From NCBI RefSeq assembly GCF_000003815.2, contig NC_049987.1, forward strand, positions 10,710,714 to 10,774,713: DNA of 64,000 bases, written 5' to 3'. Under the pieces are notes generated by a model. The model had not been told where the DNA came from, searched no databases, and was given only the letters and a program-made list of their open reading frames with translations. This DNA comes from Branchiostoma floridae. Taxonomy: Eukaryota; Chordata; Leptocardii; Amphioxiformes; Branchiostomatidae. The position numbers were made by a program, and so were the translations under genes. Of this stretch, positions 35,080 to 43,740 are shown in pieces (the first letter of the stretch is position 1; every line of letters begins with the position of its first letter).

Positions 35080-35100
35080 CATTTCTTTCTTATAGAGAAA
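35080..35100 (+). promoter_or_regulatory. Splice acceptor just upstream of the LRR-Ig start codon
   Basis: ATTTCTTTCTTATAG followed by AGAAA-ATG forms a pyrimidine-rich 3' splice site ending 5 nt before the start codon. It supports this ATG as the true start and predicts a non-coding first exon upstream, which I could not locate. Confidence 0.55.
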
Positions 35101-38100
35101 ATGTTCTACATGCTGAAGACGTTCTTGGTGTTCCTGCTCATCATCTTGGCAAAGAAAACTGGTCCAACCGCAGCCTGTAGCTGTTCAACATCTTGTGTTT
35201 GCATTGGTGAAGGCCTCGGCAGTGTCCCTAAACATTTACCCACGGGTATAGATACGCTAGACTTAAGGAGCAATCGCATCGCAAACATTAGTCAGTCTGA
35301 TTTATCAAGGTACAGGGGATTAACCGTGTTGATTCTGTCCAACAACACGATAGGGCACATCCAATCTGTTGCATTTTCAAAGTTTACCAGTCTTACACAC
35401 TTGAATCTTGGCAGAAACGAATTACAAAACATTCAGGAAGGTACATTTTCAAATTTACCTGAGCTTAAAATGCTAGCCCTGTTCAACAACATGATAACTT
35501 ACATTCGGACTGGAGCATTCCTTCATCTGCCTAAGCTCATAGAGTTGGACTTGTCATACAACAAAATAACTGGCATTCAGCAAGATGCATTTCAAAACAT
35601 GCTCCAACTGAAAAACCTTTTCATTGCGTGCAACGATATAACTAACGTCGAATCTGGTGTATTTTCCAATCTACCCCGGCTGTTACGTTTGGATCTAAAC
35701 ACTAACAATGTAAGTGTAATTCAAGGCGATGCATTTTCAAACACATCACAGCTCGAATACTTGCTACTGTCCTACAACCACATACCCTTCATCCACTCTG
35801 CCGTACTATCAGACTTACCTCGGTTACAAGAGTTGGACCTGTACGAAAACAAAATAGCTTCTTTTCAGACTGATACTTTTAAGGATTTACCTCATCTCCA
35901 ATCCCTGCATTTAGCCAATAATGACATAACTGAAATTCAGCCAGGTGCATTCTCCAATGTACCAAAGCTCAAAAAGATCTTCTTAAAATACAATAAGATA
36001 ACTACTATTCAGGTCGGCTCATTCTCCAATCTACCAAGACTAAAACAACTCTTCCTGAATTCCAACAAGATAGCTAATATTCAGGTTGGTGCATTCTCAG
36101 ATTTATTTCAGCTCCAAAAATTGGACCTTTCCTCAAACCGACTAACATTCATTCCGCTTGGTACATTTCAAAATCAACGCATGCTGAAAAAACTGTACCT
36201 GTCCTCAAACAAGATTGCGAAGATTATGCCTGAAGAATTTTCCAATCTTATTCATCTCAATACACTGTCCCTGAGTAATAATAATATACAGGTATTGTCC
36301 GGGTATAATGAGCTGTCACTGATCTCCAATGTAGCTCTTCACAACAACTCCTGGCAGTGTGACTGTAGAATGGCTGACTTCAGGGAAAAGATGACTGGGT
36401 CTGCTTTGTTTGAAAACCAAATCATATGTGAGGGGCCGAGTCATTTTCTTGGACAAAGGCTAACAGATATAATTCCTGATGACCTTATCTGTGATGAACC
36501 GAGAATTTCAAGCTTCACTGTAATTGAGAAGAGAATAGTTATGCACGGTGATACTTTTCATTTGGCCTGCAGAGTTTTAGGCATTCCATCACCAGACATT
36601 ACAGTCACCCTTCCATCTGGACTGAACGTAACTGTTGAGTCAGTTGGGAGAGTAACTGTGGAGTTGAATAGAACCATTATAATGCGAAATTCTACTTCAG
36701 CAGATACGGGCCCGTATGTATGTATTGCAGTAAACCACATAGGTTCCACATCTGCTACGTTGTCATTATGCGTCCAAGGGGCAGCATCAACTAGCCCTTC
36801 AAGTACTTTTCCAAAGGGCAATGCTAATAGTAATGCTGAAACAATATTTCCCGCCCTGTTCGGTGTCATCGGAGTAGGCATTAGCATATTGATGGGAGCA
36901 TTTATGATATCATGTATAGTTGTTGTAGTTCGGCGTAAAAAGAATGATATCAAGACAGGCATCACTGTGTCAGTACCCAGTGGTGACAACCAAGCTGTAT
37001 CTGCTGATCCTTTAACTGATGAACAAATCAACGTTTATGAGAATAATGATGAAGTAGAAGGATCTGCTTCATGTTCATTACATGAAAACCGCAAAGTGTA
37101 TGAAAACGACGACGAAGAAGCAGTGTCATACATTAATACATGCGATAATGATGATGAGATAGAAGCATCATCGGATTCTGTATCTCATCAAAATATTAAC
37201 ATTTATGAGAATGGTGATGAGATTGAAGCATTGGGTAATAATTTAGTAGTGTCAACCAGCAATGTTTATGAGAATGACAATAAGGGAGCAATATCCGCCA
37301 ATTCTGAAGAAGAACAAAACACTAACTTGTACGTAAGTGATGAAGAGGTGGCCATACCTGAACATGTACAACACAACTTGTTTAAGAATAATGAAGTAGC
37401 ATTAAATACTAATTCTGATGTTGAACAGGAAACTTACATGCATAGGCATGATGATGAATCAGCAGTAGCAATACCTGTTGATTATGGAGCTAGGGTTGAT
37501 ATCCCTGTGTTTGATAGTGACAGTGTCCATGCCACATCTACTACTTTTTGTTCAACCTGCAGCAGTGGGACCCAGAAAACCTATGAAAATGAGAAGACAG
37601 CTACTGCTTCTTCTCAGTCCATTTATAGGAACGAGAATAAGGAGGCAATGTCTGCTGCTTCTCAGTCCATCTATGAGAACGAGACGGAGGAGGCAATGTC
37701 TGCTGCTTCTCAGTCCATCTATGGGAACGCGAATAAGGAGGCAATGTCTGCTGCTTCTCAGTCCATCTATGGGAACGAGAATAAGGAGGCAATGTCTGCT
37801 GCTTCTCAGTCCATCTATGGGAACGAGAATGAGGAGGCAACGTCTGCTGCTTCTCAGTCCATCTATGGAAATGAGACTGAGGAGGCAATGTCTGCTGCTT
37901 CTCAGTCCATCTATAGGAACGAGAACGAGGAGGCAATGTCTGTTGCTTCTCAGTCCATCTATAGGAACGAGAACGAGGAGGCAATGTCTGCTGCTTTTCA
38001 GCCCATTTATGGGAACGAAAAGGAGGAGGCAATGTCTGCTGCTTCTCAGTCCATCTATGGGAACGAGACTGAGGAGGCCATGTCTGCCTCTTCTCAGTCC

Positions 38101-38508
38101 ATCTATAGGTACGAGAACGAGGAGGCAATGTCTGCTGCTTCTCAGTCCATCTATGGGAACGCGAATAAGGAGGCAATGTCTGCTGCTTCTCAGTCCATCT
38201 ATGGGAACGAGAATGAGGGGTCAATGTCTGCTGCTTCTCAGTCCATCTATGAGAACGAGACGAAGGAGGCAGTATCTGCTGCTTCTCAGCCTATTTATAA
38301 GAAGGAGACTGAGGAGGCAATGTCTGCTGCTTCTCAGTCCATCTATGGGGACGAGAACGAGGAGGCAGTATCTACTGCTTCTCAGGCTATTTATAAGAAG
38401 GAGACTGAGGAGGCAATGTCTGCTGCTTCTCATTCTATTTATGAAAACGAAAACGAGGAGATGGTGGCTGTCGTTTTTCAGTCCATTTACCGAAAAGAGG
38501 ATGATTAG
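35101..38508 (+). CDS. LRR-Ig transmembrane receptor with a tyrosine-repeat tail (1135 aa)
   Basis: Single uninterrupted frame. Signal peptide (1-~25, FLVFLLIILA); LRRNT (CSCSTSCVC); ~15 LRRs of 24 residues (pattern L..L.L..N.I..I....F..L..); LRRCT (WQCDC...IICEGP...LIC, ~415-464); one Ig domain (LACRVLGIPSP...DTGPYVCIAVN, ~468-560); TM helix (~582-606: LFGVIGVGISILMGAFMISC) then RRKKN. The ~525-residue cytoplasmic tail has five juxtamembrane YEN motifs and then 18 full 16-residue repeats (consensus SQSIYGNENEEAMSAA) plus a partial 19th. Fourteen of the 19 copies keep Y-x-N, the consensus for Grb2-type SH2 docking. The LRR-Ig-TM plan is that of LRRIG receptors, which amphioxus has expanded; an immune or adhesion role is inferred. 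A good acceptor (TTTCTTTCTTATAG) ends 5 nt before the ATG, so a 5' UTR intron is likely although the coding part is intronless. AATAAA at 39683 is a candidate poly(A) signal. Confidence 0.95.
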   Translation: MFYMLKTFLVFLLIILAKKTGPTAACSCSTSCVCIGEGLGSVPKHLPTGIDTLDLRSNRIANISQSDLSRYRGLTVLILSNNTIGHIQSVAFSKFTSLTHLNLGRNELQNIQEGTFSNLPELKMLALFNNMITYIRTGAFLHLPKLIELDLSYNKITGIQQDAFQNMLQLKNLFIACNDITNVESGVFSNLPRLLRLDLNTNNVSVIQGDAFSNTSQLEYLLLSYNHIPFIHSAVLSDLPRLQELDLYENKIASFQTDTFKDLPHLQSLHLANNDITEIQPGAFSNVPKLKKIFLKYNKITTIQVGSFSNLPRLKQLFLNSNKIANIQVGAFSDLFQLQKLDLSSNRLTFIPLGTFQNQRMLKKLYLSSNKIAKIMPEEFSNLIHLNTLSLSNNNIQVLSGYNELSLISNVALHNNSWQCDCRMADFREKMTGSALFENQIICEGPSHFLGQRLTDIIPDDLICDEPRISSFTVIEKRIVMHGDTFHLACRVLGIPSPDITVTLPSGLNVTVESVGRVTVELNRTIIMRNSTSADTGPYVCIAVNHIGSTSATLSLCVQGAASTSPSSTFPKGNANSNAETIFPALFGVIGVGISILMGAFMISCIVVVVRRKKNDIKTGITVSVPSGDNQAVSADPLTDEQINVYENNDEVEGSASCSLHENRKVYENDDEEAVSYINTCDNDDEIEASSDSVSHQNINIYENGDEIEALGNNLVVSTSNVYENDNKGAISANSEEEQNTNLYVSDEEVAIPEHVQHNLFKNNEVALNTNSDVEQETYMHRHDDESAVAIPVDYGARVDIPVFDSDSVHATSTTFCSTCSSGTQKTYENEKTATASSQSIYRNENKEAMSAASQSIYENETEEAMSAASQSIYGNANKEAMSAASQSIYGNENKEAMSAASQSIYGNENEEATSAASQSIYGNETEEAMSAASQSIYRNENEEAMSVASQSIYRNENEEAMSAAFQPIYGNEKEEAMSAASQSIYGNETEEAMSASSQSIYRYENEEAMSAASQSIYGNANKEAMSAASQSIYGNENEGSMSAASQSIYENETKEAVSAASQPIYKKETEEAMSAASQSIYGDENEEAVSTASQAIYKKETEEAMSAASHSIYENENEEMVAVVFQSIYRKEDD
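37612..38505 (+). repeat. 48-bp coding minisatellite (18 units plus a partial)
   Basis: In-frame 48-bp units encode SQSIYxNExEEAMSAA. Unit identity is high (TCTCAGTCCATCTATGGGAA recurs almost unchanged). Variation is concentrated in the residues around the tyrosine. The array keeps other frames open too, which yields long artefactual frames on both strands (37478-38569 plus, 37601-38224 minus). Confidence 0.97.
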
Positions 38509-41070
38509 TTTTCTTCTCAGTCCGGGGGACCCCCCAGGCAATCCATGGCCCATTGAAATGTATACATAAAGGCACAGAAAGACAGTGCCTATAACTCACC
38601 TTTCCGGCGTGAATATCATACAAACTTGCCCTTAATGAAATCCCACCATCTTTAGCTGTAAAAAAAAACCCACCGTCATTAGAAATATTACGGCATAATT
38701 TCTAGAAAAATACACCAAAACCCTCCCACCCATCTCAAACGCAAGCTCTTGCACAACCAGGAAATCCAAATTTCAAATTTCAAATCCCCTGAAAATCACA
38801 AAAACAAAAATAACCTCAAAGCTGCCAGAATTTCTACCCATTTTTTCAAGAAAAAAAAAACAACTTTAAGTTGAAGACCCGGAACTACATTCGATCACCA
38901 TCATTTTACATGGCGGATCGCTGGCGGATCCCCTGTTTATGGGAATGACACGAGAAGGTAGTGAATGAGTGAGTGAGCGAGTGAGTGAGTGAGTGATAAT
39001 CGATGTTTATACCAAATCGGATTCTCTACCCTAAATATCTTTATATATCATTCTATAACTATCTATCTATCTATCTATCTATGTAATACTTATGTAAATT
39101 CCTTTATTGCATTTATCATCATGGTCATCATTATTGTCAATATGAAGTCCTGTTTTTTTTCTTATACAACTAACCATCATCTTTGATCAAGCACTAATTT
39201 TTTTTTCTCATCAATTTGATACCAAAGACGTACCAGGCCGAAAGAAGGGCCATTTATGAAGATGGAGAGCAGATACTTTTTAAAGAAATTTTTTTTTAGA
39301 ATTTCCTATGTACATATTAGCTTTTTTTATTCATATGTTATTTTTGTTTAGACGACAATCACTTATGGCTGAATTTACCGAGCAAATCATTTTTTCTAGA
39401 GTTAATGTTGGTGATTGTAATAAGGGTTGTTAACCTATGTTGTCTAAATTAGCATTGTCCATTATAACAGTAAATCATGGAATTGTGAACAATTATTATG
39501 ATATTGAAAGACATATTAGAGCTAAATATAGAAGCAATGTGAGTTGCACTTTTATGAATTGTTTGCAATTTTATTTGACGATTTCTTTATATCAATGTTA
39601 TCGCAAGTAGCTTGAACCGTTGTATTGAATTGTACAGCATGTTTCAATACGGTTCATCATGTTTAAAGCACAAACATTAAGCAATAAACTATTTACCCAA
39701 AAAAGTAAACGTTGTTGAGAGATCACTTAAGTTAAAGCCAAATGATACACGTAGCCAAGAGTAGGAAGGAAAGTGCGTATTCAATAATGAGTCATACAAT
39801 ATCATACAATATCAACTTCGAATTTAATTTGGAGATTTTTGGAACCTTTCGAATCGCTTCTCTTTAGTGTCACGGTGTCTACTTGTAATTTTTTGAGAAA
39901 ACGTAAAAAAACAGTTTGTTTCTTACTGGGTTCAGGTATTAAGTCCACTTACATTGAAAGTAAAGTATATGCTACAGTTAGCTTCTTGGGTCTTTGTCTA
40001 TAGTTATAAAGATTCAAGAGACATGTGCTGATTAAACAACGTGCACAGAGTTTATAATATGCATCGATAAAAGGCTAGGACATACATGTTATAATGTAAT
40101 TCTTCGTTTGCGTGAAATGTGTGGGCCTCTGTCACTCATAAATATTATTATCATCATCATCGGTCGACGTGATCACACATGTTTACACACGACGGGGTTA
40201 TACCGCCCCTTACGGGGTGACATATCCTTTCGTTGGATGATTACAAGACCGGCATGTGCCAGGTCTCCCATCCGGGTGAATGATGTAAGTGCATGATAAT
40301 AGCTGAAACTGATTAGATTTTGGGCCCCCTAGTGGCTTCCCTTGGTACTGCAGCGCAACTTCCGGTTTTGCTATCTCGTGTTCTGAACATGCTATGGTCA
40401 CGATTTTAAAGTGTTAGATAGCTCTTTTGCTCAGGAATAAGTGACATAAGTTTGGCCCCCTCTAGCGACTAGTTTTGGGATAGCTCTGAAGAGGATAACT
40501 CAAGAAGGGTAAAATGGATTTTGATGATTTTTGTTATGTGGGTAACTTAGACAATGCTATACAAGATCAAATACGAATTAAGCAAAAGAGGAATACATTT
40601 GCATAATTAATGAGATTATTCCTTCATAGCAGATTTTTCTATGTACCTCTTATTCCAGACGTGATATGGTCGTGACATTTGGGTGGTAGATAGCTTTCAG
40701 TGTCATGACAAAGTAGCACGGAGGTTATATTTCACCCTGTGTTTGTCTGTCTGTCTGTGTGTGTGTGTGTGTGTGTAAATATAGCTCTTGTGCTTAGGAA
40801 TAAGTGACATAAGTTTAGGCCCTCTAACGTCTAGTTTGGGGATAGCAGGTAATTATGGAATAGGTGGAATATAAGCAGAAACCAAATATGGTAATGAGGA
40901 ACTTATTAGCATAATTTATGTCAAAATTGCAAAACCTCTTTATGATGAATGATGCGATTCTTTTATTGTGGCATGTGTGCGTCAGTCAATGATGAACAAC
41001 ATTATGCATAAATTATGTTAATGTTCATTAATTGCATGAAATTTACAAAAGCTCTAAATTTTTTTGGAGG
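38509..41070. other. Intergenic DNA with simple repeats
   Basis: No gene seen. There is a (GAGT)n-like tract at ~38963-38992, (CTAT)n at ~39058-39080 and (TG)n at ~40745-40775. Two CTCF-like motifs lie at ~40321-40335 (strong) and ~40455-40470 (weaker). Segments around 40480-40640 share TTTGCATAATTAATGAG with the tandem repeat at 43.7 kb. Confidence 0.5.
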
Positions 41071-42112: not shown

Positions 42113-42800
42113 ATAGATAGGTAAACAACATAATTGATACCTTCTCTGAACAAATATTATTTGAAATTACAGGAATGAAAAAAAAATGGTCCAAGTTAAA
42201 ATACCAACTAGTCGTGAAAAGTCAAATATTGAAGTTTAGATTCTTGCTCGCAAATTCCAAACTCCTACCATCACTACGTGGGTGGACTCTTGTTTTTAAA
42301 GTTTTTATATTTAGAATCAACTAAACATTTGTAATAAGGACTGTCCTATCAAAACAATACATAAAACTAACTAACGGAGATGATGGGCAGACCTTTTGAC
42401 ACAGATTTCATCGCAGGAAGGAAATCCATTCAATGTCTGTAAGAAGATTGATCCGCAGGTTTTTGTTGATGCCATGGCAACGGCGTGAGAGGCTTTTTCT
42501 GGGAAATAAGTCTGTCACTCGAAAAATCTTCGTGTATTACGTCAAATACAATGGGGCTTAGTGCACCACATTAAGATTCCTTAAAACAAATCACTGATTT
42601 CAAACTAATGAATTTCAAACTAGTTTGCAACCTATTTCTTTTTTCACTGACATATGTTAAGTTAATGGTTTGAAAACTTAATGATTGACAAAGGCCAATT
42701 GAAAATCTACTTTTAACGAACTTTTTGCAAAGCTAAGTCTGACTATTTTTGCCTACTATGTATGTTCTAAACCCCTAACAATATGATACTCCCTAGTACC

Positions 42801-43382
42801 TACGAGGGGCGTTCAAGAAGTAATCCACCTGACCCACTTCCAGTTGTCTGATCTAGATGAAATTTTGCATATGTACTGATTCATATCTCTATGGGTTATG
42901 TTGCAAAAAACAGCTGTGAACTAATTTTGGTTTTTGATTTAAAGGTGTTTGAACTGAGTCAGGTGTGAAATGGACCAGGTGTGAAATGGAGCCAGTTGAG
43001 TGTCGCGCAGTGATCCGGTTTTTGTATTTGAAAGGACGCATACCAAATGAGACTTTTGATGAAATGAAAGAAACTTATGGTGATGATTCCCCATCATATG
43101 ACCTTGTAAAACGCTGGCATTGTGAATTCAAACATGGCCGGAAGTCTGTGGAAACAGCTCCCAGACCTGGTCGTCCCTCTTCTGCCATTGATGAGGCATC
43201 TGTTGCAGGACCAACCTGGGGCGTCCTACAAAAACGGTGTACAGAGCTGCATCAAACGATGGTAGAAATGCATAACTCTGGGTGATTCCTATGAAGAGAA
43301 AGACTAATAACTGCACCAAGTTTCATTAATCTCCTCCTTTGGGAAATGGGTCAGGTGGATTACTTCTTGAACGCCCCTCGTA
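42801..43382 (+). mobile_element. Mariner-type internally deleted element, copy 2
   Basis: 582 bp, the same length as copy 1, with a perfect 36-bp inverted repeat (TACGAGGGGCGTTCAAGAAG...). The same internal deletion joins transposase N- and C-termini (frame 42965-43285). The TIRs differ from copy 1 at several positions, but in both arms at once. Confidence 0.92.
42965..43285 (+). pseudogene. Deleted mariner transposase, copy 2
   Basis: The same fusion as in copy 1: VECRAVIRFLYLKGRIPNE, then PRPGRPSSAIDEASV, then GVLQKRCTELHQ. The catalytic domain is absent. Confidence 0.85.
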
Positions 43383-43740
43383 GCTTTGTTTAGGGACGTC
43401 CCTGGTTAGGACTTGAAATTGAGGCCTTGTGTTTAAGTACAGAAATCGCAAAACGTATCGAAAATAGTAATGATCCATCCCAAAGTATGTGTTTCATATC
43501 CTTTCAGTTCAATGGCCGCAATATTGCGCCATGAACAGACTGTCATGAAAGACCTTTGTAACCTGGTTATGTCGATCTCGTAATCTCATGCTGCGAAGAT
43601 AGTAGTAGGCCTATCTAATTAGTTACGTTACAACAACAATGTAATGAACAAAAGTGCTGTGAGTTTGGGTTCCCTAACGGCTCGTCTTGAACTGCAAGCG
43701 CCAGTTTCCTTTGAAACTTTGGACAAGAATAAGTCGAAAA
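43383..43740. other. Spacer right of mariner copy 2
   Basis: No gene or clear repeat seen up to the tandem repeat that starts at ~43745. Confidence 0.4.

Follow-up and report, generated by a model that had tools for sequence, protein, structure and literature searches.

The Branchiostoma floridae window, the whole 64,000-nucleotide stretch of DNA that was analysed, encodes a receptor whose long tail is filled with Y-x-N motifs and which belongs to a family of similar receptors in the same genome. We lean, at slightly better than even confidence, towards the view that this family forms a multivalent docking platform, in which a type I LRR-Ig receptor carries a tail for Grb2-family adaptors. 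This view builds on the receptor anatomy, on the enrichment and recurrence of the motif, on codon constraint between paralogues of two clades and on a Grb2 SH2 domain with an EF-loop Trp in the same genome.

The receptor frame combines an LRR array and an Ig domain in one chain, as in an LRR-Ig transmembrane receptor. LRR_8, I-set and Ig_3 all score above the Pfam cut-offs, which bears out the LRR-Ig receptor proposed by the first-pass annotation. The ectodomain is clear from the sequence, and its Cys-rich caps (CSCSTSC at the start and WQCDCRM...LIC at the end) are presumably LRRNT and LRRCT. PDB relatives of the ectodomain include LRRC4, LRIG1 and LRRC15, with LRRC4 aligning to receptor residues 197-561. 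A hydropathy scan locates one transmembrane segment with a basic stop-transfer sequence (RRKK), and the signal peptide was judged by eye. The tail is probably disordered. No kinase family occurs among the 10 Pfam matches of the receptor (E 0.001), which argues against a receptor tyrosine kinase. The splice-site-like stretch upstream of the ATG, which has a similar counterpart shortly 5' of the first Met in 10 of 16 loci inspected by eye, suggests a spliced 5' UTR upstream of a single coding exon. Besides the receptor frame, the array is open in a second forward frame (37469-38569) and, across most of its length, in two minus-strand frames (37552-38220 and 37601-38290). Its openness was therefore rejected as proof of coding, since it proves nothing alone; the 1145-codon frame with its domains does.

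Table 1. Features of the receptor gene, in positions of the window
Feature	Coordinates	Strand	Basis or detail
Receptor ORF, 1135 aa, ATG to TAG	35101..38508	+	Open frame; paralogues found
Signal peptide-like N-terminus MFYMLKTFLVFLLIILAKKTGPT	35101..35169	+	Hydrophobic run by eye; putative
LRR ectodomain with Cys-rich caps	35170..36492	+	LRR_8, 9 stretches, E 1.7e-87
Immunoglobulin I-set domain, residues 476-558	36526..36774	+	Pfam I-set 1.5e-08, Ig_3 6.4e-08
Transmembrane segment IGVGISILMGAFMISCIVVVV	36868..36930	+	Hydropathy 2.64; RRKK next
Tail, 525 aa, taken as cytoplasmic	36931..38505	+	100 acidic and 29 basic residues, 29 Tyr, 21 Y-x-N
Juxtamembrane region, 6 irregularly spaced Y-x-N	37036..37590	+	Five YEN, one YIN; related region in L032 and L033
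Array, 19 units of 16 aa (commonest like SQSIYGNENEEAMSAA)	37612..38505	+	14 in-register Y-x-N
3' splice-site-like stretch, pyrimidine-rich, AG end	35082..35095	+	Five bases upstream of ATG

The array has exactly the boundaries and the 19 register units given by the first-pass annotation. It is built from 18 full 48-bp units and a last unit of 30 bp that is cut by the TAG codon at 38506-38508, and Tandem Repeats Finder assigns it a period of 48 with 17.9 copies and 86% matches (37604-38460). Tyrosine is present in 19 of 19 units and Asn at +2 in 14 of 19, the in-register count reported before. The earlier description of the array as homogeneous has to be qualified: at +1, the 14 in-register motifs have G eight times, R three times and E three times, and the in-register N is gone from five units (two YKK, one YGD, one YRY and one YRK). 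Unit 11 (YRYEN) additionally holds a shifted YEN. Ahead of the array, Y-x-N motifs lie at 37036, 37099, 37129, 37204, 37267 and 37582; the juxtamembrane sites described earlier are present but number six rather than five. The high copy number likewise stands, although the total is 21 among 29 tail tyrosines and not about 19. Each of the 21 motifs is followed by an acidic residue between +3 and +6, in agreement with the acidic context noted at first sight. In 2000 shuffles of the tail, the mean count is 2.8, the maximum is 8 and none reaches 21, a figure that by itself overstates significance because tandem copies are not independent. Several Y-x-N above chance (21 versus 2.8) are what a multivalent Grb2-docking tail would hold. 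No tyrosine in the window receptor's own tail is followed by a hydrophobic +3 residue. YGN and YRN, which may be weak ligands, account for 11 of the 14 in-register motifs in the array, in contrast to the older juxtamembrane YEN.

The receptor does not stand alone but is one of a family. At least 55 loci in the same genome display tail similarity (47 on C5 and C7), of which 39 lie in frames 750 aa or longer and 13 were read over the matched stretch. Thirty-two tails were pooled, leaving out L055, and 19 of them carry at least two Y-x-N; the tail of L056, read outside the pool, has no Y-x-N. The 19 tails contain 173 Y-x-N versus 25.8 (s.d. 4.8) expected in shuffles, a comparison that is inflated by tandem copies. 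Y-x-x-[LIVMF] is depleted (16 versus 51.5 expected), and YxxM is absent (0 versus 5.4). An ITAM is a YxxL/I pair, and an ITIM reads (S/I/V/L)xYxx(I/V/L). The ITAM pattern occurs 0 times versus 0.5 expected in these 19 tails, which, judged by this pattern and by the broader YxxL/I/V/M/F in place of the exact ITIM pattern, are not those of ITAM/ITIM receptors. The pooled Y-x-N motifs have I/V at -1 in 69%, E/G at +1 in 81% and D/E at +3 in 79%; their consensus is [IV]-Y-[EG]-N-[DE]. Amplified units measure 16 aa in L001, L033 and L038, 20 aa in L044, L046 and L050, 21 aa in L053 and 13 aa in L054. The pattern is well beyond shuffles and is found again in diverged paralogues with other unit lengths.

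Motif content differs across the family. The highest Y-x-N count is 22 (L033), the count of 16-aa-spaced motifs varies widely between close relatives, and some relatives of the receptor have short tails or other motifs. The L032 frame ends early, with degenerate repeats beyond the stop in another frame; in L035, labelled 'none' in the tree, a 20-aa YEN array follows in-frame stops. Genes labelled with at least five Y-x-N require 7 changes on the tree and by these labels do not form one clade. For L025, L026, L028 and L029, however, the labels rest on cut loci, and L035 counts as 'none' despite its array, so no count of gains and losses is drawn from the tree. The L041 'tail' is probably no tail, as the preceding segment has a hydropathy of only 0.63. 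Low-identity tail matches (11 of 75 rows, 14-24%; on C165, C3:5.3-5.8 Mb, C15 and C19) were dropped as probable low complexity.

Constraint on the motif was assessed with a codon test in which the motif is defined in either sequence of a pair. An initial dN/dS comparison, with motif codons taken from the window gene alone, was alignment-biased and was set aside. Of the 136 pairs that 17 tails allow, 17 reached the required 80 aligned codons and 55% identity; these pairs share genes and so are not independent. No pair involving L038, L024 or L042 passes this filter, and in L026, L027 and L029 the locus ends before the tail does. In five of seven pairs from clades A and B, which comprise the window receptor's clade and one other, the Y and N codons have fewer changes (p ≤ 0.05) than randomly drawn codons from that tail. 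Clade C exhibits no constraint, with 1 of 10 pairs at p 0.05 or lower. These comparisons suggest constraint on the Y/N codons in two of the three clades tested. Within the window array, 25 replacement changes are found versus a neutral expectation of 25.03, and the +2 N is not conserved beyond chance; in this test, changes that create stops contribute to the expectation, and every distinct departure from the consensus is scored once. All 18 full units keep the Y and the I before it, though this invariance is not significant (p 0.17 and 0.20). The neutral-like replacements indicate that the array is young and that its copy number may be neutral. This neutral fit within the array comes close to the neutral evolution of repeat tyrosines in relatives that the first-pass annotation named as evidence against docking. 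The older YEN motifs are better-supported sites than the array, which is recent, probably raises valency and may be partly neutral.

These results also allow a reading in which function is confined to the few older YEN motifs of the juxtamembrane region, the 16-aa array being a young minisatellite of neutral copy number in a tolerant, disordered acidic tail. We consider it unlikely, yet it deserves to be taken seriously: it would account for the neutral-like array pattern, the five of 19 units without in-register N, the widely differing numbers of 16-aa motifs between close relatives and the decayed repeats past the L032 stop. It fits less well with the amplification of different-length units with the same motif in paralogues of several clades and with the family-wide depletion of other tyrosine motifs; the invariant Y and I of the full units point the same way at their non-significant p values.

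The pooled consensus bears on both kinase and adaptor. Passages of PMC10065799 report that c-Src favours Ile/Leu/Val at -1 and Asp/Glu/Ser or Gly at +1 and that the Grb2 SH2 profile, alone among three SH2 domains, is dominated by Asn at +2. [IV]-Y-[EG]-N-[DE] thus unites the -1 and +1 residues preferred by c-Src with the Grb2-type +2 Asn. In the same passages, c-Src additionally favours Phe at +3, a residue that is not one of the most frequent at that position in the pooled tails. Acidic surroundings also suit ZAP-70-type kinases (PMC5089863). According to passages of the same paper, ZAP-70 substrates have Asp at -1, where the tails mostly have I/V. One SH2 exon of the Grb2 gene in the same genome, reading KYFLWVVKFNSLNELV, matches the human query at 78% identity over residues 99-153 and retains the EF-loop Trp. 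In the docking platform that we favour, engagement or clustering of the ectodomain would bring a Src-family kinase to the tail, where it would phosphorylate the consensus sites. pY-x-N would then attract adaptors of the Grb2 family through their SH2 domains: Grb2 itself and, should it occur here as it does in B. belcheri, GADS. With many sites per chain, SH3-bound partners such as SOS or SLP-76 would crosslink tails into a signalling cluster like that of LAT or the EGFR tail.

The tail might instead serve no phospho-signalling, its acidic tyrosine repeats being sulfated, if extracellular, or acting as a charged spacer. Acidic residues near tyrosine also suit sulfotransferases, and acidic residues far outnumber basic ones in the tail. 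This is nevertheless very improbable, given that the signal-peptide-like start, the ectodomain and the single hydrophobic segment with RRKK place the tail inside and that sulfation leaves the Asn at +2 unexplained. A different reader of that Asn is a somewhat better candidate, if still a poor one. Several SH2 classes share the +2 Asn, including the Grb7 family and tensins, and docking of, for example, a tensin or Grb7-type SH2 would couple the receptor to cytoskeletal or endocytic processes instead of Ras or SLP-76. The +3 residue here is acidic, whereas in some Grb2 ligands it is hydrophobic, and 60 exon-wise SH2 matches in the genome leave many candidates. The dominance of +2 Asn that sets Grb2 apart in passages of PMC10065799 and the presence of a Grb2 with the EF-loop Trp argue for Grb2 instead.

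The receptor resembles the innate-type LRR-Ig (LRRIG) receptors of amphioxus in its LRR and Ig ectodomain, one transmembrane segment, long single open frame and large clustered family. Among the matches listed, no literature title or abstract describes Y-x-N arrays or tails on LRR-Ig receptors, and the tail family could be a signalling platform so far undescribed in amphioxus. The substrate domain of p130Cas, which repeats YxxP for Crk, is comparable in presenting repeated tyrosine motifs to one adaptor class, but p130Cas is cytosolic and its motif is another; YxxP is unenriched in the pooled tails (4 versus 10.4). Members of the LAT family lack a large ectodomain and have a very short extracellular part, unlike the receptor with its large LRR-Ig ectodomain. 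LAT, LAB/NTAL and LAX are, according to PMC3291652, membrane-anchored scaffolds with several Grb2-binding motifs, a likeness to the tails here, and with aggregation driven by valency. The Grb2 valence of LAT in that source is zero to three, whereas up to 22 Y-x-N occur on an LRR-Ig receptor here (L033). PMC9181613 describes the EGFR tail as a disordered region of ~200 residues with several phosphotyrosines that condenses with Grb2 on membranes. The tail described here, probably disordered too, would be similar, but EGFR has its own kinase.

In passages of PMC5431462, slp76, GADS and Itk are found in amphioxus but no LAT-like molecule, and an unknown membrane-bound recruiter is offered as one possibility. 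The receptor family members are candidates for this LAT-like platform reported missing. More tentatively, and with rather little confidence, the family may be the missing LAT itself. Receptor and adaptor platform would be fused in one chain, a Src-family kinase would phosphorylate it directly without ITAM-Syk, Grb2/GADS and, via GADS, SLP-76/Itk would be recruited, and repeated amplification of the motif unit would have raised valency. If the tails bind Grb2/GADS, a germline receptor family would join what vertebrate lymphocytes split into antigen receptor and LAT. Amphioxus would then have a direct candidate for recruiting the SLP-76 complex to the membrane, the recruiter that the study in PMC5431462 did not find. 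The tails, with 2 to 22 sites, would also form a natural series for measuring how valency affects signalling clusters.

The window gene (L001) encodes an LRR-Ig receptor in which Pfam detects LRR_8 in nine stretches as well as an I-set/Ig domain, and LRRC4, LRIG1 and LRRC15 are among the solved structures related to it by sequence. Because RRKK follows its strongly hydrophobic segment, the 525-residue tail is most simply read as cytoplasmic. A pyrimidine-rich stretch with a terminal AG lies five bases upstream of the ATG, and by eye 10 of 16 loci examined, L001 among them, show a comparable stretch shortly upstream of their first Met. These stretches suggest that the 5′ UTR is spliced and that the coding region is a single exon.

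Features of the window gene, its surroundings and selected related loci
Locus	Location	Strand	Feature
L001	35101-38508	+	Uninterrupted frame, 1135 aa (ORF reading)
L001	36868-36930		Single strongly hydrophobic segment, then RRKK (hydropathy scan)
L001	37612-38505		Array of 16-aa units
L001	37469-38569	+	Second frame open across the array
L001	37552-38290	-	Two frames open over most of the array
Window	42800-43383		Inverted repeats of 42 nt with 98% complementarity, separated by 500 nt; small transposable element-like
Tail match, same genome	C5:25387980-25388696		Tail-like match lying in a 3884-aa open frame, which greatly exceeds the other listed frames
L053	439-1601	-	Ig-like stretch (by eye) and TM-tail in different overlapping frames; spliced or broken
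L054	185-1927		580-aa frame with, by eye, an Ig-like stretch; also a stalk rich in Ser/Thr, a hydrophobic segment and YDND/YEND repeats

The L001 tail contains 21 Y-x-N motifs, compared with a mean of 2.8 and a maximum of 8 in 2000 composition-preserving shuffles. The first-pass annotation counted the array correctly (19 units of 16 residues, 14 with an in-register Y-x-N). It also noted acidic residues after each motif, and all 21 have one within +3 to +6. It claimed five motifs before the array, but six are present; unit 11 carries an extra, shifted motif. The array is also open in additional frames because the 48-nt unit is a multiple of three and lacks stops in those frames.

The observation of a Y-x-N tail is real, and such tails extend beyond the single receptor of the first-pass annotation to a family of loci. 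In the organism's own genome (513,431,437 bases, 431 contigs), the whole L001 protein gave at least 127 matches with 41 of 2225 first-look candidates scored, and the tail alone gave at least 75 rows with 86 of 339 scored. Removal of 11 low-identity rows left at least 55 tail-like loci (34 on C5 and 13 on C7), which are loci rather than gene models and may include fragments; frames of at least 750 aa occur at 39, and 13 were read over the matched stretch. The set is incomplete because five further Y-x-N tails (L024, L042, L044, L046 and L050) fall outside it. Among 30 tails, five of which (L025-L029) are cut by the locus end, 17 carry at least two Y-x-N motifs and 13 individually exceed all 2000 shuffles. 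Addition of L053 and L054 brings the former count to 19 of 32, and the L056 tail, a further one read, has zero. Tails with zero or one motif are mostly short, and some contain other motifs. As no LRR was seen in the 580-aa frame of L054, the Y-x-N tail may also occur on an Ig-only ectodomain.

Pooled over the 19 tails with at least two motifs, Y-x-N occurs 173 times versus 25.8 (s.d. 4.8) in shuffles, Y-x-x-hydrophobic is depleted (16 versus 51.5 expected), YxxM and the ITAM pattern are absent and YxxP and YxxQ are not enriched; because tandem copies are not independent of one another, the counts measure motif content and not separate events. The motif is flanked by I/V at -1 (69%), E/G at +1 (81%) and D/E at +3 (79%). 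At -1, c-Src prefers Ile/Leu/Val; its preferred +1 residues are Asp/Glu/Ser or Gly, and its preferred +3 residue is Phe (PMC10065799). Lck favours a hydrophobic -1 residue, and ZAP-70 substrates typically have Asp at -1 and many acidic residues (PMC5089863). Set against these preferences, the tails match what a Src-type kinase favours at -1 and +1 but depart from it at +3, and being acidic they would be suitable for a ZAP-70-type kinase too. Asn at +2 dominates the Grb2 SH2 profile in the former source (PMC10065799). The genome's own Grb2 SH2 exon, KYFLWVVKFNSLNELV, keeps the Trp credited with the turn underlying this Asn preference. That residue corresponds to W121 of human Grb2.

Other tail elements were also observed. 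The L047 tail lacks Y-x-N and contains EYQTLRPSQPPAEYQSL, with two YxxL at ITAM-like spacing, so LRR-Ig subfamilies may have differing tyrosine codes. Proline stretches near Tyr motifs (PPSPPPR in L042, PPLPPPRR in L048 and PPSLPPR in L024) are SH3-ligand-like. The L038 tail has six consecutive SQSVYKK[GD]SEER units, with Tyr kept and Lys in place of Asn, between Y-x-N units on both sides; two YKK units occur in the L001 array.

Equally spaced motif runs have periods of 16 (L001, L033 and L038), 20 (L044, L046 and L050), 21 (L053) and 13 residues (L054), with linkers that differ among the arrays of different paralogues. The ectodomain tree resolves clade A (L001 and L031-L034; support 100/100), clade B with the 20-residue period (L035, L044-L046 and L050; 100/99) and clade C (L038, L049 and relatives; 100/98). 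Different clades have amplified units with little in common beyond [IV]-Y-x-N-[DE], a pattern that slippage alone would not readily explain. In L035, a YEN array of 20-residue period runs on past in-frame stops, indicating an intron or an interrupted gene; in L032, the frame stops early and degenerate repeats run on in another frame.

Between paralogues, codons were counted as Y/N motif codons if the motif occurred in either member of the pair, and they changed less than codon sets drawn at random from that tail in L001-L032 (p = 0.0022), L031-L033 (0/5000), L031-L034 (0.003), L044-L046 (0.022) and L046-L050 (0.003), but not in L033-L034 (0.11) or L045-L050 (0.10), and clade C reached 0.05 or lower in only one of 10 pairs. 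Within the L001 array, 25 of 34 distinct changes are replacements versus 25.03 predicted by random placement, with zero at Tyr (p = 0.17) and three at Asn. Because this pattern matches random placement, the array is young and its Tyr constancy, taken alone, is no evidence of function; it is the youngest and least constrained part of the gene.

The Y-x-N array is real, and a docking mechanism is plausible. A multivalent docking tail is, by a modest balance of probability, the most likely mechanism: a Src-family kinase would phosphorylate the Y-x-N sites, Grb2-family SH2 domains would bind the phosphorylated tail, and SH3 partners of the bound adaptors would cluster tails. Such putative docking and clustering has analogues in LAT (PMC3291652) and in the tail of EGFR (PMC9181613). 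The titles and abstracts listed, which cover few subscription papers and not the 2008 survey of amphioxus immune genes, describe no LRR-Ig receptors with Y-x-N tails. In a B. belcheri study, slp76 binds GADS and Itk; its authors found no LAT-like molecule and gave an unknown membrane-bound recruiter, or no recruiter at all, as possibilities (PMC5431462). The Y-x-N-tailed LRR-Ig family is a concrete candidate for that membrane-bound recruiter.
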